Positions 14,850 to 38,964 of a stretch of 39,781 nucleotides of DNA are shown here, piece after piece. Position 1 is the stretch's first letter. Each line of letters opens with the position of its first letter. Both the position numbers and the translations under genes were made by a program. The notes beneath the pieces were generated by a model. It searched no databases. It was given only the letters and a program-made list of their open reading frames with translations, and was not told where the DNA came from. Source of the DNA: a virus; the IMG/VR virus record IMGVR_UViG_3300008448_000229, positions 1-39,781 of that record; one strand, given 5' to 3'.

Positions 14850-15187
14850 CGCGACACCATCTGATAGCTGGGCGAGACATGGCCCGCGAGGATGGCGACG
14901 AACGGCAGGCTGATCTTGGCGGGGGCCGGGGCTACCGGCTCAGCCGCGCCGGGGTTCTGCCGCTCGTTCTTCCTCACGACGAGGCCAGTTCCGCCAGTGC
15001 GGCGCTGGTTCAGCAGCTTGTCGATGCCGCGCCTCTTGCGGCTGGCGTTCTTCGCCTTCTCTCCGCAGATATCGAGCTGATACCGGAGAGTGGATACGCT
15101 CACGCCAAGGGCGTCTGCGACTGCCGTGGCTGCCATCCCTTCTGACAGCAGGCGGCTGGCGTCTTCGATCCATGCGGGGGTTGTCAT
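14846..15187 (-). CDS. HTH protein, 113 residues
   Basis: WIEDASRLLSEGMAATAVAD followed by ALGVSVSTLRYQLDICG is a clear helix-turn-helix at residues 6-42. A basic stretch (KNASRKRRGIDKLLNQRR) and a proline/alanine-rich tail follow. It lies directly upstream of the DnaA-like gene (ATGA overlap), so they are probably cotranslated. Likely a DNA-binding early regulator; target unknown. Confidence 0.68.
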   Translation of the reverse strand: MTTPAWIEDASRLLSEGMAATAVADALGVSVSTLRYQLDICGEKAKNASRKRRGIDKLLNQRRTGGTGLVVRKNERQNPGAAEPVAPAPAKISLPFVAILAGHVSPSYQMVSR

Positions 15188-16793: not shown

Positions 16794-16822
16794 ATGTAAT
16801 CGGCAATTGCCGATCATGTCAA
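16794..16822 (-). promoter_or_regulatory. Putative leftward early promoter with repressor operator
   Basis: On the minus strand TTGACA (16822-16817), a 17-base spacer and TTACAT (16799-16794) form a good sigma-70-type promoter for the Cro-like gene. The 16-bp perfect palindrome ATCGGCAATTGCCGAT (16799-16814) lies almost exactly in the spacer, so repressor binding would block polymerase. The same 18 bases CGGCAATTGCCGATCATG recur at 17614. Confidence 0.75.
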
Positions 16823-16872
16823 CAGGCAATCCGCTTATCGCCAAGCAGGGCGATTCAGCACATAGGGGATTT

Positions 16873-28603: not shown

Positions 28604-28822
28604 TCAGGGCTTCCAGGCGCAAAGCGCCGCCCCAACTGCATTGTGCTGCTTTGCCTGCAACACGCTCTCGCTGGTATCCTGAGACGACCACCGAATGGGT
28701 TTGAATTGATCGCAGAGCGCGCGCTCAGTCGCGCCGCCAGCCGTCCGACTTGCGCAGCCCATCAGGGGAAACGTCAGCGTTAGCGCGAGCGTCAGCGCCC
28801 TTGCGGCGGATATCGTTTGCAT
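28604..28822 (-). CDS. o-spanin (Rz1-like lipoprotein)
   Basis: A 72-residue lipoprotein. MQTISAARALTLALTLTFPL then MGCASR form a signal peptide with lipobox L-M-G-C. The mature part contains ALCDQFKPIRWSSQDTSESV, typical of short Rz1 analogues. It would be anchored in the outer membrane, pairing with the inner-membrane spanin to disrupt the outer membrane in lysis. Its start lies within the i-spanin gene in another frame, the classic Rz/Rz1 arrangement. Confidence 0.85.
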   Translation of the reverse strand: MQTISAARALTLALTLTFPLMGCASRTAGGATERALCDQFKPIRWSSQDTSESVLQAKQHNAVGAALCAWKP

Positions 28823-28961
28823 TGGACAAATCCTCTAGCTGGGCCTTCGCCTTCGCGTCCTGCCGACCCTTGAGATAGATCGCGCCGATGGCGGCAACCG
28901 CAGCCCCGGCAGCGGCAATCCAGCGCCAGACGGGGGCCAGCAGCGACAGGAACAGGCTCAT
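28725..28961 (-). CDS. i-spanin (Rz-like)
   Basis: A 78-residue protein. MSLFLSLLAPVWRWIAAAGA then AVAAIGAIYLKGRQDAKAKA: a membrane anchor followed by a charged coiled-coil ectodomain (QLEDLSNANDIRRKGADARA). Shorter than lambda Rz (153) but of the right layout. The ATG overlaps the holin stop (ATGA); the 3' part overlaps the o-spanin gene by 98 bases. Confidence 0.8.
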   Translation of the reverse strand: MSLFLSLLAPVWRWIAAAGAAVAAIGAIYLKGRQDAKAKAQLEDLSNANDIRRKGADARANADVSPDGLRKSDGWRRD

Positions 28962-29182
28962 GGCGCGGGCTCGCGCTTCTGCCCGATGCGGATGACCCAG
29001 CCGATGATGCCCACGCCGAGCGGGACGATGGCCAACTCCAAAAGGTCCACCACTGGGGCCGAGATCAGATCCGCCACCGACTGCGGCAGGCTCAGCTTCG
29101 ACACGGCGTAGCTGAGAAACAGCGGCGTCACGACAAGCGCGATCTGCCGGGCGAACACCGGCCAACTGTTGATGAAGCTCAT
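28958..29182 (-). CDS. Holin candidate
   Basis: A 74-residue membrane protein: MSFINSWPVFARQIALVVTP, then two membrane segments (ALVVTPLFLSYAVS and LLELAIVPLGVGIIGWVI) and a basic end GQKREPAP. Position directly between endolysin and spanin genes makes it the best holin. The ATG lies two bases after the endolysin stop; earlier codons are in the endolysin frame region. Confidence 0.75.
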   Translation of the reverse strand: MSFINSWPVFARQIALVVTPLFLSYAVSKLSLPQSVADLISAPVVDLLELAIVPLGVGIIGWVIRIGQKREPAP

Positions 29183-29183
29183 G

Positions 29184-29975
29184 TCACTTGCCCTTGAACA
29201 GCGCGCCGAGCGCGGCAAACATGGCCTGCCAGAAGCCCTCGGAAGCCGGGGCCTGGTGCGTGCCATCGTTGCGGGTGGGGGCCGGCGCGGGGGAGCTGTA
29301 TGCACTTTCTGCATATTGCTCGACGGGCGCGGAAGGGGATGGTGGATTATCGGCGGATTTCGGGGCCGATGCAACCTCTGCGCCGTAGCCTGCGGCAATC
29401 AGCGCCTTTTCAAACGTCTTGGCGTGGCTGGCGATGAGGCTGGCCCTATCCGTGCCGTTGATGATGCGCCGGGCTCCGGCATAATCGGGCGGGCTCTTGT
29501 CGAGATAGTCGCGGTTGGCCTTGCCTGTGTACGAGCCGGTTTCCATGCCCCAGATCAGGATGCGGGCCGCAAGCGTCGGCTCGGCGGCGCGGTCAGGGTC
29601 TTTCTCCAGATCCACGCCAACATGCTTGCCGGCCTTGCGATAATTGCTGCGCCCGGTCAGTTGGACAAAGCCGCGACCGAAGAAGCGCGCACCATCGCCG
29701 CGCTGTGTGTTGCCGAGCGTCGCCGCCACCTTGGGACGGTTGCCGGCCATGTCATACATGCGGTGGAAATACTCGGTGCCGCCCATCTCCTTCAGGGTGG
29801 AGAAGCGGGCACTTTCGTGAAAGCTCGTCGCTAAGGCATAAGCCGCGTGCGATCGCGGCCACTCGGCGGCCTCTATAGCGTCCAGCAATGTCTCGATGTT
29901 GTAGACTTGGCCGGGCTTCAGCCCACTCGTAAACAGCGGGCCACGGATGGCCGAGAAAAACGCGCGTTTGTCCAT
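29184..29975 (-). CDS. Endolysin, glycoside hydrolase family 19 type
   Basis: A 263-residue cell-wall hydrolase. FHESARF (52-58) carries the first catalytic Glu54; MGGTEYFHRMYD and FFGRGFVQLTGRSNY are GH19 (chitinase-like lysozyme) core motifs, and the second Glu is probably near EMGGTEYF. It would cut peptidoglycan. The last 60 residues are a proline/serine linker and a hydrophobic helix (EGFWQAMFAALGALFKGK) which may hold the enzyme at the membrane. There is no N-terminal signal, so release depends on the holin. Confidence 0.9.
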   Translation of the reverse strand: MDKRAFFSAIRGPLFTSGLKPGQVYNIETLLDAIEAAEWPRSHAAYALATSFHESARFSTLKEMGGTEYFHRMYDMAGNRPKVAATLGNTQRGDGARFFGRGFVQLTGRSNYRKAGKHVGVDLEKDPDRAAEPTLAARILIWGMETGSYTGKANRDYLDKSPPDYAGARRIINGTDRASLIASHAKTFEKALIAAGYGAEVASAPKSADNPPSPSAPVEQYAESAYSSPAPAPTRNDGTHQAPASEGFWQAMFAALGALFKGK

Positions 29976-29998: not shown

Positions 29999-30328
29999 TC
30001 AGGAGCCGTTCGGGCGCGCGTAGAAACAGCGCATGGTCGCCGGGTCGGGATAAATGCAGGCGAAGAACCGCTGCTCGCCGTCCATCGACACGCGGGCCTT
30101 GTCGAACGGCACGCGGTAGGTGTGCGTCATCACCTCTTTGGCCAGCATTGGATGATCTTGCGGGCGCAGGGTGATGACATAGCCTTGCGGCGTGACCTTC
30201 ACGGCCTCGTCGGGGATCGGCTGGCAGTCCTTATCGTTGCAGCACCACGGGTCGAACCAACTGTGAGCGCGTGCGGGATCAGTCCCCGGCCCAAGGATGA
30301 GCAGGAGCGACAACCAGAACAGTCTCAT
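29999..30328 (-). CDS. Secreted Cys-rich protein
   Basis: A 109-residue protein. MRLFWLSLLLILGPGTDPARA is a signal peptide; the mature part starts HSWFDPWCCNDKDCQPIPDE and has KVTPQGYVITLRPQDHP and a C-terminal FFACIYPDPATMRCFY. The HSW.DP.CC...DC start recurs in secreted proteins of alphaproteobacteria and their prophages. Six Cys suggest disulphides in the periplasm. It lies between tail-fibre genes and the endolysin, ahead of which a terminator is placed, and may be an accessory gene. Confidence 0.72.
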   Translation of the reverse strand: MRLFWLSLLLILGPGTDPARAHSWFDPWCCNDKDCQPIPDEAVKVTPQGYVITLRPQDHPMLAKEVMTHTYRVPFDKARVSMDGEQRFFACIYPDPATMRCFYARPNGS

Positions 30329-32470: not shown

Positions 32471-33556
32471 TCAGAGTTTGATGAGCCAGGTGACCAGCAG
32501 GAAGGGCGGCATGTTGTTGTGAGCGTCGCCGGAGCCGGATGCGGCGGTCGTGAAGCTGTGGGTGTGATCGCCGGTCGTGTTCGTGCCGAACGTGTGCGTA
32601 TGTGTGCCGTTCTGGTTGATGCTCAGAATGTGCGTGTGCGCGCCGCTGCTGTCGGTCGTGGTCGCGGCGTTCGGCGGGGCGAAGACAGAGCCGCCAGTCG
32701 TACCGCCAAGGCTGAGTGCGTTGGAAAACAGATAGCCATGGACATGCGCGCCATCGGAGAGGGTTGAGCCGGTGTGAGCGTGCAGTCCGTCCGCCGCAGT
32801 CGTGCCGGTGTGGGCATGGCTGCCGGATGAGCCTGTCGTGCCGGTGTGAGTGTGCGATGCCAGTTCAGCCGTGGTCAGCGTGTGCAGCGCCGCGCCGCCG
32901 CTCGCGCCAAGGGCGTCCGCCGAGCCAGACGCGAAGGTCACGCCAGCCAGCAACCCGGCAGGGCTGTTGCCCATCGAGTCCCGCCCAAATAGAGCCCGGC
33001 CCCGACCGCTCGGCAGTGCAATCGTCTTATTGGCTGCCCAATCCGCCGCAGCCGACGCGCCCCGCCCACCGGATACGGCTAGCGTGCTGTCGGCAGCCCA
33101 CAGGAACAGGAACAGCGCCTCTGTGTCGTCATTGGCCCGCTCGGTTGCGCCAGACGCTGCCGAACCGATGGTGCGGCCATTGAGGCGCACCCAGCCTGTC
33201 GGCGCTGCCGTTCCCCACGTCCAGCCGCCGATGCCGGTGGCGACCGTGATGCCCCCGCCGCCACCACCCCCGCCCGCCTCGACATCGCCGGGGATATTGT
33301 CAACGGTGTCGATCAGCGCGCCGCCGGGCGTCTTGATGATGGCCTTGTACGGGTTGCCCTGGCCCCAGATGTTGGGGAACTGCGCGTTTGCGTCCGACGC
33401 GATGTTGTCGGGATCGAACGGCGTGTTCAGGTCGCCGTCCTGATACATCGTGCGAGGCGTGTTTGTGCCCGCGTCGAAGAACGTGACCTTTGCTCCGACG
33501 ATGAACTCGCCCTGATAGCGGGCGATCTGTCGGGAGATGAGGGAGTAAAAGGCCAT
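32471..33556 (-). CDS. Tail fibre with HxH metal-needle repeats
   Basis: A 361-residue protein. FYSLISRQIARYQGEFIVGA, then KVTFFDAGTNTPRTMYQDGD and IASDANAQFPNIWGQGNPYK form a known podovirus fibre N-terminus that binds the tail. A Gly8 hinge and a collar-like domain (PTGWVRLNGRTIGSAASGAT) follow. Seven H-x-H motifs (HTH, HAH, HAH, HVH, HTH, HTH, HTH) lie in the last 130 residues; in T4 gp37, such motifs hold a row of iron ions in the fibre needle. Ends NMPPFLLVTWLIKL. I start at MAFYSL; upstream codons read through the terminator. Confidence 0.85.
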   Translation of the reverse strand: MAFYSLISRQIARYQGEFIVGAKVTFFDAGTNTPRTMYQDGDLNTPFDPDNIASDANAQFPNIWGQGNPYKAIIKTPGGALIDTVDNIPGDVEAGGGGGGGGITVATGIGGWTWGTAAPTGWVRLNGRTIGSAASGATERANDDTEALFLFLWAADSTLAVSGGRGASAAADWAANKTIALPSGRGRALFGRDSMGNSPAGLLAGVTFASGSADALGASGGAALHTLTTAELASHTHTGTTGSSGSHAHTGTTAADGLHAHTGSTLSDGAHVHGYLFSNALSLGGTTGGSVFAPPNAATTTDSSGAHTHILSINQNGTHTHTFGTNTTGDHTHSFTTAASGSGDAHNNMPPFLLVTWLIKL

Positions 33557-33567
33557 GGGCGGCTCAC

Positions 33568-33594
33568 AAAAAAAGCCGCCCGGTGAGGGGCGGC
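33568..33594 (-). terminator. Terminator before the tail-fibre genes
   Basis: On the minus strand GCCGCCC-CTCACC-GGGCGGC and seven T. The loop is the same CTCACC as at 3276 and 17573. It lies between the plus-strand cassette and the fibre genes. Confidence 0.85.
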
Positions 33595-33602
33595 TTGTGG
33601 GT

Positions 33603-33620
33603 AGGCAATTCGAAATGCCT
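33603..33620. promoter_or_regulatory. 18-bp near-palindrome ahead of the plus-strand cassette
   Basis: AGGCAATTCGAAATGCCT pairs at 16 of 18 positions about a TTCGAA centre. A half-site CGAATTGCCT recurs inverted at 33685-33694. The 175-base gap is AT-rich and would hold the promoter for 33769. Likely an operator; the GGCAATT part resembles half of the CI operator. Confidence 0.5.
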
Positions 33621-33768
33621 AAAAATACCAAGCCAAAACAATGACTTGCGACTTAGTGAAAACCCGGTTTGCCTATCTGCCTACCGAATTGCCTCTTGGC
33701 TGATTGAGCCGAGGAACTGGCAGCGTTTGCGCTAGACTCGCGAGGGCGCGTCAGGCAGGCTTGAACCC

Positions 33769-34056
33769 ATGAAACAGGTCATTCGAATTGCGTTGCTGCT
33801 CGCCGCAGCCGGGTTTTCAACAGCGGGCCATGCCGCTTGCTCTTGCACATGCGTCAACGGCCAGGTTCAGGCGATCTGCGAGAGCGCCATTGACTTGCGC
33901 CCGATCTGCTCGCCGCAGATTTGCCCACTTGTGCCGCCGTCCATCGCGCCATTGCAGACGCCTATGGTCCCGCCGGTTGGCACGTCCCATTGCCGGCAGG
34001 TTCAGGCTATCGACCGTTATTCCGGGCAGTATCAGTGGCGCACGGTGTGCCAGTGA
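33769..34056 (+). CDS. Secreted Cys-rich protein of the plus-strand cassette
   Basis: A 95-residue protein. MKQVIRIALLLAAAGFSTAG then HAACSC is a clear signal peptide. The mature part, CSCTCVNGQVQAICESAIDL then PICSPQICPLVPPSIAPLQT and GQYQWRTVC, has nine Cys and many Pro. Proteins with this C.C.CVNGQVQ.IC pattern occur in alphaproteobacterial genomes and prophages. It is transcribed against the late operon, with its own promoter region, so it is a likely lysogen-expressed accessory gene. Confidence 0.78.
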   Translation: MKQVIRIALLLAAAGFSTAGHAACSCTCVNGQVQAICESAIDLRPICSPQICPLVPPSIAPLQTPMVPPVGTSHCRQVQAIDRYSGQYQWRTVCQ

Positions 34057-34247
34057 TCCGCGCCATTCAAATTGCACTGCTGCTGGCCGTAATCATCCCG
34101 TTTGCGTGGGCCGTAAAAAGCGGCGTCTCGATGCTGCCCCGCGACTTGGTAATGATCGGGGCCGGTATTCCGATAGGGCTTGGCCTCTCAATGCTGCTTG
34201 ACAGGTGGGACGCCCGCATTCGTCAGCGTGACGGGACCGGCAACTGA
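34053..34247 (+). CDS. Small membrane protein of the plus-strand cassette, GTG start
   Basis: A 64-residue protein: (GTG) IRAIQIALLLAVIIPFAWAV, then MLPRDLVMIGAGIPIGLGLS. Two membrane segments with a basic end. The GTG overlaps the previous stop (GTGA). Its 3' end overlaps the end of the convergent ejection-protein gene by 25 bases, showing a tight insertion. May work with the secreted protein at the envelope. Confidence 0.68.
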   Translation: MIRAIQIALLLAVIIPFAWAVKSGVSMLPRDLVMIGAGIPIGLGLSMLLDRWDARIRQRDGTGN

Positions 34248-35890
34248 TCCGCCTGCGTCTGAGCGCCACCTTGCAATGCAGCGCGGACACGGCTTTCGAT
34301 GAGGGCGCGGACCTGAGGCGTCACGGTCTGGTTGCTGAGATAGCGCTGAACCGGGCCTGACCAGAGCGCACGCCCGAAAGCGCTGGGGCCAAGCGCAACG
34401 ATAGCCGCCATCATCGGATCGCCGGTCATCGCCGCTGTCGCGCCGCCGCCGCCTGCCATGCCGGTGATGAGGTTACGCTGGGCTGTTCCCGAATTGGGGA
34501 GCGGGGTCATGACGGCGTTGCCGGCGCGGGCCAGTTCCGCGAAATCACCCTGACCGCGCGCATAGGCTTCGCGATTATTCCCGCTTGCCGTTGCCGACCG
34601 AAGCGCCTGGGGCGTTATCAGCCCCTCGGCAGTGCCGGCTCCAGCGCCAGATGACGCTTTGGCGAGATCCTTCCAGTTCCCGTATTCGCTGCGGGCAGTA
34701 GCCCATGCAGCCGCATCGTCTGACCCCGCCGGGATCGAACGCACCATGCCGTTATCAAGCGCATTGCGCATGCCACGGATCGCGTCGGCGAAATCGGGGT
34801 CTGACTGGCGGTTATTGTTCGCCATGCGGGAAAGCCGCGAGCGTGCAGTTTGATATTCCGACCCCGGCATGACGCCGCCGCCGGCGCGGAACCGCTCGAC
34901 AATATCCGTGGCGAGGTTCCCAACGATCTGGCGCTGCTCCGCCGGCAAAACGCGATCATATTCGCGAAGCGTGGTGCCGAGGTCTTGCGCAAATTGCTGG
35001 TCTGCCCGCAGATTGTTGCGCGAAGACAGATCGCGGAATGTCTGGCCGATGCGGTCGTAATTGGCCTGCATATTATCAGGGGAAGCGCGGCCCGCACCGC
35101 CAGCGCGACGCATGGCAGCGTCGGTGAAAGCCTCAGCCTGGTCCGTCATCATCCGCTGACCGCCGCCGACGAAGGGCGCATCGCCCAGCACGCTCTCAGC
35201 ATACTGGAGCCCCTTGGAGCCGGTGCGCTGCCCTGCCGATAGCGGGACGCCCTCGCGGGTCAGCGTGTCGATCATGGCCTGCCGCTCCGGCGGGATTGTC
35301 ATGGGCGTCACGGCTCGTCCTGTCAGCGCTCCGATGCCCCGCGCAGCAACGGGAACAGCCGCGCCGACTGCCGCTCCTGTCACAGCGCCTTGCCCGGCTC
35401 CAAGCAAGCGCGCGTCAAGCCCGCCCTCGGCATTTGCACCGCCAGAAACCGCGCCATATGCCGCGCCTTCAACCGCGCCTGCCCGAACCATCTGCGGCAG
35501 CGTCATCCCCTGACGCATCAGTGTTGCGCCGCTGCGAGCAAGGCCGAGGCCCGTTCCCATGCCGCCCGCAATTTCTGCCGCCGTCGCCGTGATCGGGTTG
35601 GCCTCGCGGCCCGCTTTCTCCTTGCCGCGAAACTCCGAGACGCCGCGCTCGTAACCTGCGCCGAAGCCCTCCCCGGTAAACAGCCCCTTGACGCCTTGCG
35701 TGAGACCGTAGCTCTCATCAGCGAGGCCCATGGTCAGGCCGGATACGCCACTGCGCAAAGCCGTCTCCCCCATGCCGGGGCGCGCGTCTGCCGGCTTGGG
35801 GACGAGATCAGCGAAGGGGCTGCCCGGCGCAGACACAGACGGCGCGCTAGGCCCGCTCGCCTTGGGGATCAGGTCGTCAAAAGCGCCCAT
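34223..35890 (-). CDS. Ejection (internal virion) protein, P22 gp16-like position
   Basis: A 555-residue protein. MGAFDDLIPKASGPSAPSVS begins a low-complexity N-terminus with a repeated F.DL.PK motif (FDDLIPK, FADLVPK). A Gly/Ala-rich membrane-active section (AAEIAGGMGTGLGLARSGAT, QGAVTGAAVGAAVPVAARG) follows. Then a long helical part (FRDLSSRNNLRADQQFAQDL) and an Ala/Gly-rich end. P22 gp16 and gp20 have like composition; they leave the head first and form the route for DNA across the envelope. Family identity is by composition and position. Confidence 0.72.
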   Translation of the reverse strand: MGAFDDLIPKASGPSAPSVSAPGSPFADLVPKPADARPGMGETALRSGVSGLTMGLADESYGLTQGVKGLFTGEGFGAGYERGVSEFRGKEKAGREANPITATAAEIAGGMGTGLGLARSGATLMRQGMTLPQMVRAGAVEGAAYGAVSGGANAEGGLDARLLGAGQGAVTGAAVGAAVPVAARGIGALTGRAVTPMTIPPERQAMIDTLTREGVPLSAGQRTGSKGLQYAESVLGDAPFVGGGQRMMTDQAEAFTDAAMRRAGGAGRASPDNMQANYDRIGQTFRDLSSRNNLRADQQFAQDLGTTLREYDRVLPAEQRQIVGNLATDIVERFRAGGGVMPGSEYQTARSRLSRMANNNRQSDPDFADAIRGMRNALDNGMVRSIPAGSDDAAAWATARSEYGNWKDLAKASSGAGAGTAEGLITPQALRSATASGNNREAYARGQGDFAELARAGNAVMTPLPNSGTAQRNLITGMAGGGGATAAMTGDPMMAAIVALGPSAFGRALWSGPVQRYLSNQTVTPQVRALIESRVRAALQGGAQTQADQLPVPSR

Positions 35891-38034
35891 TACAACCCCT
35901 CCGGCGTGATGCCGTAGTCTTCCTTGAGGCGCTTCAGGACGCCTTCACGCGGCGCTCCGCTGGCGATGGCCTGCTGAGCCTGCTCGCGCAGCCCCTTAGC
36001 GCGCTCCATTGTCATCGGTCCGCCCGTCTTGCGCTCTTGATTGGTCAGCGTGCGCCCATGAACGACGCGCTCAAAAGTGGCGCGAACACGGCCAAGGTTC
36101 GTTTTGAATTGGTCGGGGGACTGGCTTTGCGAGAGGTTCGCATAGCTGTTTTTGAGAAGCTGAAGCTCGCCCTCGGTGATGCCACCCAGCGCGCCGCCCG
36201 TTGGTGACGACTCGCGCATCTGCTGGAGCTGCCCGAAGCTGATGTTTGCGCCGACCGTCTCTAGGGCTTTGGCAACATCATGCGCGGCAGTGCCGGGGAT
36301 ATTAGCAACCCGAGCCCCGAGCGCGCCAGCAACAGGCAGCGTGGCCGAACCGGCAAGACGGTCGATATCGTCCAGAGCATTAGCGACAATGTTGCCGGTT
36401 TCCGCCTTCAGGACATCGGCCTTGGCCTTTTTCTCGGCAATTTGTTTGACTTCAGCTTCGGCCTTGCTGCCAGGGATTGGTTCGATGCGCTCCAAATTGC
36501 CTTCCGGGTCACGAACCGCCCGATAGCCTGGGGGCAATGTCGCCTCGTTGACGGTTCTGCCGGCTTTGGCCAGTCGGATTTTCTGAGCTTCCTGCTCAGG
36601 CGTGAGGACACCGGAAACCTCGCGCTCCAGCTTCTGTATCTCAAGGCCCTTCTTCTGCGTCTCAAGACGCGCCTGTTCCCGCTTTTCGGGGGCGGTCTCG
36701 GCAGAATAGGCTTGGCGCTGGTTGTATACCTGCACTGCAAGCGCATGGTCTGGATGCTTGGCGTTGCGGACGAGCGGGATCAGCGCCTCCGTCGCCACGT
36801 TGGGGAACGGGTCGTTCGGCGGCAGCGTCGGCGTCCCCGGCAGGCGGAACCCGCCAGGCTGCTCGGTGACGGGGGTTGCACCCTGCGCCGGCATGTCAGC
36901 GACGGGGCTGCCGGGCTGCTGCGGCTCAACGGGAGCCTGCGCGACCTGAACCGGAGCGGCGGGCTGCTGGGGCTGCTGCGGGGCTGCGGGCGCGCTCTGG
37001 CGACGTGCAAGCTCCTGCTGCATCAGCGCCTTGAGGTTCGGCGCGACGTTGGGATTGTTGAGATAGCCGTTCAGCGTGGCTTCATCGACGCCAGCATAAA
37101 CCCCGCCGCTGCCGACCGGAGCGCCGGGCTCCGCCGGGGCTTGCGCAACCTGCGTCTGCGGCACGAACGCACCAGAGGCCGGAGCAGGCTCACCACCGAG
37201 AACGAACTGATTGGCCCCGGCGACGCGCTCATTTGCCTTCAGCGCGCCCATGGGATTGCCGGAGGTGTAGCCCTGCGGCCTGAAATACCCGATGGCCGCC
37301 GCGCCGGCCTGCTGGGGCGTTTGCGCGTTGGCGATGGCGGCGCCCGAGCGCCCTTCCGTGGTGCGCAGTTCGTAGGCGATGAAATCGGACTGCACATTCG
37401 GGTCACGCCAGTCCTTGCCCTGCTGCGCGGCGAACTGCTGAAGCGCCTGCGCGCGGGGGCCGTTCCACTGCGCAAGGCCGATGCTGTCAGATCCGTCCCG
37501 ACCGTCGCCAGGGTTGCGCGCATCTGTGCGGAAGCGGCTTTCTGTGTTGAGGTTGCCGGCGATGCCAGCCGCAGCCGTGGGTGTCAGCCCGTTGTTGACC
37601 AAGCGCGCGGCCACCTTCTGGCCCGGCGTTCCCGTCGAGCCTTCCAGCGCCTGCACTTCCGCCTCGGAGGTCGCAATCGTGGGAACGGGCTTGTATCCGC
37701 TTTCGCCGGGGCGAGACTGCCCAAGGCTGGACAGAGCCGGCGCAACCGGAGAGCGCGGCGTCCCCATGCCACCGCCGCCCGCGTTGAACGGGCTCGACTT
37801 GTAAGCCTGATCGGTCAGCGAGCGTTCACGGGCTTTCTCCGATAGCGCAAACATGTTGGTCGCGCCGCCGATATCACCAAGCGCAAGCAGGCTCTGCCCA
37901 GCCTTGGCAAAGCCCTCTGGCGTGCCGTCGATACCCTGCCCGAGCTTCGACAACTGCTGCCGCTGGGCAATGCTGTTGATGCTCTTGTCGAGGCCGGAAA
38001 AGTCGAGGGCCTTGTAGTCCGTGAACGCTGCCAT
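35890..38034 (-). CDS. Ejection protein with phage tail lysozyme domain
   Basis: A 714-residue protein. Residues about 140-255 match the phage tail lysozyme fold: KVAARLVNNGLTPTAAAGIA, GNLNTESRFRTDARNPGDG (catalytic-type Glu165), SIGLAQWNGPRAQALQQFAA. It would open peptidoglycan during DNA entry. A Gln/Pro-rich linker (340-400) and a coiled-coil C-terminal half (EKREQARLETQKKGLEIQKL; DVAKALETVGANISFGQLQQ) follow. TAATG couples it to the next gene. The P22 counterpart by position is gp20, which lacks such a domain. Confidence 0.85.
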   Translation of the reverse strand: MAAFTDYKALDFSGLDKSINSIAQRQQLSKLGQGIDGTPEGFAKAGQSLLALGDIGGATNMFALSEKARERSLTDQAYKSSPFNAGGGGMGTPRSPVAPALSSLGQSRPGESGYKPVPTIATSEAEVQALEGSTGTPGQKVAARLVNNGLTPTAAAGIAGNLNTESRFRTDARNPGDGRDGSDSIGLAQWNGPRAQALQQFAAQQGKDWRDPNVQSDFIAYELRTTEGRSGAAIANAQTPQQAGAAAIGYFRPQGYTSGNPMGALKANERVAGANQFVLGGEPAPASGAFVPQTQVAQAPAEPGAPVGSGGVYAGVDEATLNGYLNNPNVAPNLKALMQQELARRQSAPAAPQQPQQPAAPVQVAQAPVEPQQPGSPVADMPAQGATPVTEQPGGFRLPGTPTLPPNDPFPNVATEALIPLVRNAKHPDHALAVQVYNQRQAYSAETAPEKREQARLETQKKGLEIQKLEREVSGVLTPEQEAQKIRLAKAGRTVNEATLPPGYRAVRDPEGNLERIEPIPGSKAEAEVKQIAEKKAKADVLKAETGNIVANALDDIDRLAGSATLPVAGALGARVANIPGTAAHDVAKALETVGANISFGQLQQMRESSPTGGALGGITEGELQLLKNSYANLSQSQSPDQFKTNLGRVRATFERVVHGRTLTNQERKTGGPMTMERAKGLREQAQQAIASGAPREGVLKRLKEDYGITPEGL

Positions 38035-38037
38035 GGA

Positions 38038-38964
38038 TCAGAACCCGAAAAGTTTGGTGCCGGCGTTGAATAGGGTCGTGCCGATATTCACAGCGGTTTG
38101 CTGGTTGGCCTGCTTGGCCGCGTCGCCAGCCTTGCCGGCTTCGGTGACGCCCTGCGCGATGCCCTGCGTGGTGAACTGGCCAAGCTGGTTGAGGCTGTTG
38201 CCGAGGCCGGTGTTGACGCCCGCTTCCTGCGCGCCCGTCCCGGTGAAGACGTTGCCGAGCGACGTGCCGAGGTTCGTGTAAACGCCCGCCTGCTTGTCAG
38301 CGAGGCCGGTAGAGAGCCCGGCAAGGGCATTGCCCTGCCCGACGCCCAACTGCGCAAGCTGGCCGTAGCCCTGCTGCTGCTGGCCTGCCGCCTGCAAGCC
38401 GGTCTGGCTCAGCGAGCCGAGCTGCCCGAAGTATTGCTGCCCGGTCTGGTTGGCGAGTTCGCCGCCGATCCTGCCCAACTGGTCGATCTGGTTGCCACCG
38501 AGACCGCCGACCACAGAGGCTTTCCGAAGGGCCGCGTCCGCGGTCGAATTGACCACATCCTGGTAGCCCGTCGCATTGCGCCAGGTATCGAGCGCCTGCT
38601 GCTGCGCGCCAGATGCGGCTGCGCCGTTGAGCCCGAGGAAGTCGCTCTGAGCGTTCGACGCTGACTGACCGTTCTGCACCCACGGGTTGAACAGGTCGAT
38701 CCCGGTCTGAGTATCGGCGCGGGCCTGACCATAGCCGCCCGTCACATCGTTGCGGGCCTGCGTGTAGCCGGTGCCGAGCGAGCCGAGCGCCAGGTTTGCG
38801 TTGCCCTCCAGCGCGCCGACTGCGTTCGTGCGGCCCTGCCCGATATTGCCGAGCGCGGTAGCCGACTGCGTCAATAGCTGGTCGGTGGTGGCCTGCTGGT
38901 TCGGCCTGAAAAGCTGGCCCGCGTTGTAGGACGCAGCCGTGCGTTGTCCGCTTGCTGTTGCCAA
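38038..38964 (-). CDS. Ejection protein, P22 gp7-like position, TTG start
   Basis: A 308-residue protein almost wholly made of Gly, Ala, Gln, Leu and Asn repeats with a heptad-like period (LGQLGSLSQTGLQAAGQQQQ; GYGQLAQLGVGQGNALAGLS). This is typical of head-stored ejection proteins, and C-terminal NIGTTLFNAGTKLFGF is a hydrophobic tail. The frame has no ATG near its start; TTG 38964 with GGAGA six bases upstream is the best start. It follows the terminator at 38979. Confidence 0.75.
   Translation of the reverse strand: MATASGQRTAASYNAGQLFRPNQQATTDQLLTQSATALGNIGQGRTNAVGALEGNANLALGSLGTGYTQARNDVTGGYGQARADTQTGIDLFNPWVQNGQSASNAQSDFLGLNGAAASGAQQQALDTWRNATGYQDVVNSTADAALRKASVVGGLGGNQIDQLGRIGGELANQTGQQYFGQLGSLSQTGLQAAGQQQQGYGQLAQLGVGQGNALAGLSTGLADKQAGVYTNLGTSLGNVFTGTGAQEAGVNTGLGNSLNQLGQFTTQGIAQGVTEAGKAGDAAKQANQQTAVNIGTTLFNAGTKLFGF

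Follow-up and report, generated by a model that had tools for sequence, protein, structure and literature searches.

The window (the whole stretch of DNA analysed here) spans a complete virus record of 39,781 bases and is, by its gene content (repressor and integrase), a temperate phage; terminase, major head protein, endolysin and an Rz-like spanin were also recognised in it. The late genes lie on the minus strand and run, in the part considered here, from a 308-aa protein through a gp20-like protein and a DNA-ejection protein to a tail fibre, the last two being separated by a gap of 666 bp. This gap, hereafter the slot, harbours two small plus-strand genes, ORF1 and ORF2; the two-gene unit read against the virion genes that an initial annotation had proposed is indeed found between the minus-strand ejection and tail-fibre genes. 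The same slot is filled in two relatives, the metagenomic phage contig L002 and L003. The features of the locus are:

38964..38038, minus strand: late gene for the 308-aa protein
38034..35890, minus strand: late gene for the gp20-like protein, with a tail lysozyme domain
34223..35890, minus strand: DNA-ejection protein of 555 aa in the position of P22 gene 16 (phrog_26400, E 6e-33; 60% identical to that of L003)
34053..34247, plus strand: ORF2, 64 aa, GTG start, two hydrophobic helices and a basic C-terminus (slot relative in L003)
33769..34056, plus strand: ORF1, 95 aa, with a signal peptide and a mature part that is rich in Cys and Pro and predicted to be secreted (slot relative in L002; chromosomal family, alignment A4)
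33598..33768, plus strand: AT-rich leader or promoter region of the cassette, without a convincing sigma-70 promoter (composition, promoter scores)
33685..33694: inverted half-site CGAATTGCCT (P = 0.06 in shuffles)
33629..33648, minus strand: second, weaker late-strand terminator-like hairpin (terminator scan)
33602..33621: near-palindrome TAGGCAATTCGAAATGCCTA (TAGGCAATTC GAAATGCCTA) of 20 bp with 9 of 10 pairs, a possible operator
33573..33596, minus strand: late-strand intrinsic terminator at the slot boundary, 17 nt before the tail-fibre start (also in L002, L003 and many relatives with an empty slot)
32471..33556, minus strand: tail fibre, 361 aa (phrog_8763, E 3e-39)

ORF1 begins with a hydrophobic stretch (residues 4–22), in agreement with the signal peptide proposed earlier; the signal is of the A-x-A type and has no lipobox. 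Read from the sequence, the protein contains eight Cys (C24, C26, C28, C37, C47, C52, C75 and C94), which would probably form disulphides, rather than the nine first counted, and its C-terminus has the form C...W..VCQ. ORF2 has hydrophobic segments at approximately residues 7–25 and 31–50, as anticipated for a two-pass membrane protein, and is predicted to reside in the inner membrane. The suggested coupling of the genes is seen in the overlap of the ORF1 stop with the ORF2 start in GTGA, and the two would be translated as a coupled pair; the last 25 bp of ORF2 lie within the 3′ end of the ejection gene. The coding starts of the two genes (33776–33800 and 34060–34084) are near-repeats (CATTCRAATTGCRYTGCTGCTSGCC; IRIALLLA and IQIALLLA), possibly a recombination point or a duplication. 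Elsewhere in the late operon, beside the endolysin gene, a further small secreted Cys-containing protein is encoded on the minus strand at 29999–30328 (MRLFWLSLLLILGPG...), with no match in PHROG or Pfam.

One secreted Pro-rich protein and one small membrane protein with overlapping genes might also represent a late lysis pair (spanin or antiholin) read from the other strand. We consider this very unlikely, as endolysin, a holin-like gene and the Rz-like spanin are already clustered on the late strand (28725–29975), the cassette is oriented opposite to the late genes, and ORF2 is almost devoid of a periplasmic domain for spanning. A spanin or lysis pair was rejected on account of this separate cluster; identity with Rz/Rz1 was likewise rejected, ORF2 lacking the periplasmic domain, ORF1 the lipobox, and neither matching a spanin PHROG.

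Both ORFs are small and codon usage does not favour them, as would be the case for chance open frames lying antisense to or between late genes. Codon usage is uninformative for both, and it is on homology that we take ORF1 and ORF2 to be real coding sequences. L002 carries a relative of ORF1 in the corresponding slot, likewise running against the late genes; in the block IAPLQTPMVPPVGT its protein is identical to ORF1 and the DNA differs at codon positions 1, 2 and 3 by 1, 0 and 6 changes, respectively. A relative of ORF2 (48% over 62 aa) occupies the slot of L003, again on the strand opposite to the late genes. These were the only slot relatives found, one for each gene. Their common orientation and third-position-biased changes, together with the chromosomal family of ORF1 described below, make chance frames a highly improbable explanation.

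The DNA similarity between the window and L002 stops at the ORF1 stop, and that between the window and L003 starts at the ORF2 start. This switch of homology at the junction indicates, at the level of sequence, that the cassette is mosaic. In the place of ORF1, L003 has a lipoprotein gene (LSGC lipobox) whose stop overlaps the start of the ORF2 relative in TTGA, and the second gene of L002 is a 33-aa reading frame with a single helix. The cassette is thus composed of two parts that can be exchanged, while the junction between them is conserved; it would probably have been acquired and reshuffled by recombination.

Upstream of ORF1, the region 33598–33700 has a G+C content of 45.6%, compared with 62.9% in the window, a value this low occurring in just 0.2% of 103-bp windows; this agrees with the AT-rich region described initially. 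The near-palindrome and the inverted half-site of that description are both present; the former has P = 0.004 in local intergenic shuffles, and about 0.6 matches are expected window-wide in a looser pattern search. A three-site operator was rejected: two further partial copies of the core, at 33778 and 34062, belong to the coding sequence where ORF1 and ORF2 begin and are therefore weak as operator evidence. An operator shared with the repressor was also rejected, the cassette palindrome being absent near the repressor gene, where other palindromes stand. Those upstream of the repressor gene (16803–16854) are ATCGGCAATTGCCGAT and ATCGCC-N6-GGCGAT, and they are likely repressor operators. No promoter above background was detected upstream of the cassette (best score 7.4; 90th percentile of windows 8.2). 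A good candidate, TTGGAG-17-TATGAT, is found upstream in L002 (score 11.1, above the 95th percentile), and scans of the other filled slots remained at background level, perhaps with the exception of L027 and L032. By analogy, the expression in a lysogen put forward in the initial annotation would be plausible.

A consensus scan of 33000–34500, of a kind that misses terminators of other types, gave no terminator-like site on the plus strand; morons are usually, but not strictly, flanked by their own terminator. On the late strand, a terminator precedes the tail fibre at 27 of 59 tail-fibre starts, compared with 21 of 390 other genes; it is present in the window and likewise in L002 and L003. 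Such an association could point to a cis-acting unit, the reverse genes acting through their promoter and the late-strand terminator to tune read-through into the tail-fibre gene; for P22, an effect of this kind of the ant moron on the tailspike has been proposed (PMC2629481). However, the terminator also stands before the tail fibre in empty slots and therefore belongs to the slot and not to the cassette, and conservation at the protein level shows that the proteins matter, so that we hold a cis-acting function to be unlikely. Within 33556–33600, the late strand offers the terminator's 3′ arm (GGGCGGC) two possible partners, its own 5′ arm and the GCCGCCC that stands directly before the tail-fibre ATG, and terminator and start-site hairpin would therefore exclude each other; this alternative pairing is not seen in L002 or L003.

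The slot was surveyed at 70 loci whose tail fibre is related to that of the window, by measuring the distance from this gene to the next long gene upstream. In 29 of 60 loci this gap is shorter than 100 bp, in 11 it is between 100 and 250 bp and in 20 it is longer; 8 of 10 upstream genes tested match ejection-type PHROGs or PHROGs accompanying those. When the longer gaps are pooled with the slots of the window, L002 and L003, the opposite strand holds 31 ORFs of at least 45 aa with a hydrophobic helix, versus 2.7 expected from dinucleotide shuffles, a count that includes related phages and hence non-independent cases; on the same strand there are 5 versus 0.3. By sequence, the slot is a site of opposite-strand membrane genes: when filled, it holds unrelated membrane or secreted genes, mostly in this orientation, and the gene sets differ among the window, L002, L003, L013–L022 and L032. 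Two marks of a moron, insertion between genes that are adjacent in relatives and differing gene sets across relatives, are found here. The accessory cassette (moron) aimed at the envelope that the initial annotation had put forward is thus backed by comparison, through the variable slot contents and the match to a moron site of P22. We conclude that the two reverse genes very probably form a genuine moron of mosaic make-up, placed in a slot of known type and encoding two undescribed proteins, and that it is likely to act on the envelope.

The largest slots observed, of 3.3–3.6 kb (L015, 1335–4964; L022, 1710–4967), contain about seven opposite-strand genes for small membrane proteins, several of which have a motif like WYVLxRVTDRTEVLIVT; those tested have no PHROG match.

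Neither ORF1 nor ORF2 matched any family in Pfam, PHROGs, NCBIfam or PADLOC, and the same holds for the members of the ORF1 family tested; as judged by sequence, both proteins stand outside any described family. A profile of ORF1 gave strong chromosomal matches in 2 of 398 Sphingomonadales and approximately 5–6 of 397 Rhizobiales genomes. Members of this family share paired Cys at both ends and an Ala preceding the first Cys, the latter in keeping with signal peptidase I. The chromosomal relatives are mostly single genes among varied housekeeping or unrelated neighbours, without ORF2, and one of them (L201) lies in a phage-like element, its neighbours being judged by eye. In two Rhizobiales genomes (L203 and L205) the relative stands beside genes of the dTDP-rhamnose sugar type, as named by eye. 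No ORF1 relative was found in phage and plasmid records, or in a genome scan with the ejection protein as query. For ORF2, 348 Sphingomonadales and 347 Rhizobiales genomes gave nothing, or two weak partial matches regarded as chance, and its family is seen only in phage slots.

As it occurs both on chromosomes and in phage, ORF1 looks like a gene shared by the two, as morons often are, and because its chromosomal relatives stand alone it need not act with ORF2 or against phages. The single chromosomal genes among housekeeping neighbours would suit lysogenic conversion without exclusion, in which a change of the envelope (e.g., in stress tolerance or surface properties) benefits the host and ORF1 is a captured host gene keeping its host role. 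We regard this as possible, although rather doubtful, considering that the slot beside the ejection gene is the exclusion site of P22 and that the ORF2 family is confined to phage slots.

The explanation we prefer, with middling confidence, is a reverse moron in a P22-type slot that acts from the prophage on the host envelope, its most likely effect being superinfection exclusion at DNA entry. The cassette occupies the place of the exclusion gene of P22 and is therefore probably a related lock-out or envelope-changing add-on; that it specifically excludes incoming phages as their DNA enters has, in our judgement, about an even chance. In P22, SieA is an inner-membrane protein expressed from the prophage that blocks injection, and escape mutations fall in gp16 and gp20 (PMC10883804). 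By analogy, the cassette would alter the host envelope from the prophage, with ORF2 at the inner membrane hampering, in the way of SieA, the ejection-protein conduit of related phages as they come in. ORF1 would be exported, probably disulphide-bonded in the periplasm, and may be a partner of ORF2 or act separately at the cell surface. Against exclusion speak the dissimilarity of ORF2 to SieA and the absence of either protein from the four family collections, the want of a clear promoter and of a plus-strand terminator, the occurrence of chromosomal ORF1 relatives without ORF2, and the single slot relative per gene.

SieA belongs to a small number of exclusion proteins whose known point of action is the ejection conduit, and the ability of one protein to cope with diverse ejection proteins is described as hard to understand (PMC10883804). 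We tentatively suggest that the ejection/tail-fibre slot of P22-like phages, probably of alphaproteobacteria, may be a reservoir of undescribed exclusion proteins; the cassette would then be a modular two-part form, consisting of an inner-membrane part and a part that is periplasmic or a lipoprotein, with exchange of the parts at an invariant overlap of start and stop so as to suit differing incoming injection machines. A second lineage with the same arrangement and unrelated small proteins would offer independent test cases in which the candidate target is encoded next door, and the slot is a defined place to look for new phage-against-phage membrane proteins.

One of the closest known systems is P22, in which the region from gene 16 to gene 9 carries sieA and mnt on the reverse strand; a distance of 23 bp separates sieA from the end of 16. 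The gp20-like gene, ejection gene, reverse cassette and tail-fibre gene of the window correspond to 20, 16, sieA/mnt (reverse) and 9, and in both cases a membrane-protein gene, ORF2 in the window, is convergent with the ejection gene and next to it. The P22 region, named "ant moron" in a study of epsilon34, is empty in some P22-like phages and otherwise filled in others (PMC2629481), so that in both groups the slot is empty or differently filled among relatives. The correspondence of the ejection protein to gp16 was established by PHROG and gene order, BLASTP giving no similarity between the two. On the other hand, the window has no mnt, arc or ant, and a secreted Cys-rich gene (ORF1) is coupled to ORF2. 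Membership of ORF2 in the SieA family (similarity, at least three transmembrane helices and an FxRYPxEAxxFNK motif) was rejected, because neither sequence nor helix number fits: SieA has 164 aa and three helices, ORF2 64 aa and two, and the two do not align at E values up to 100.

Small exported phage proteins such as the receptor-blocking Cor and Llp also bear some likeness, the L003 lipoprotein standing in the ORF1 position; this lipoprotein matches the Cor PHROG through its signal only (E 0.012). ORF1 differs in having an A-x-A signal and no lipobox, and a Cor-like receptor blocker was rejected for it, as no PHROG matched at E up to 1. In HK97, the "reverse moron" gp23 is a reverse gene in a slot directly before a tail-fibre-type gene (J), and a putative late-strand terminator (15107–15129) stands 12 bases before J (15141), as one does before the tail fibre of the window; HK97 is, however, another type of phage, and gp23 is an unrelated single gene annotated with its own terminator. 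HK97 gp15, a small membrane protein, differs from the cassette in location and sequence and is likened to it by description only. The title of a work cited in PMC10883804 describes gp15 as a moron-encoded superinfection exclusion protein. Taken by position and predicted topology, the cassette would work in the manner of the P22 ant moron and the HK97 reverse moron.
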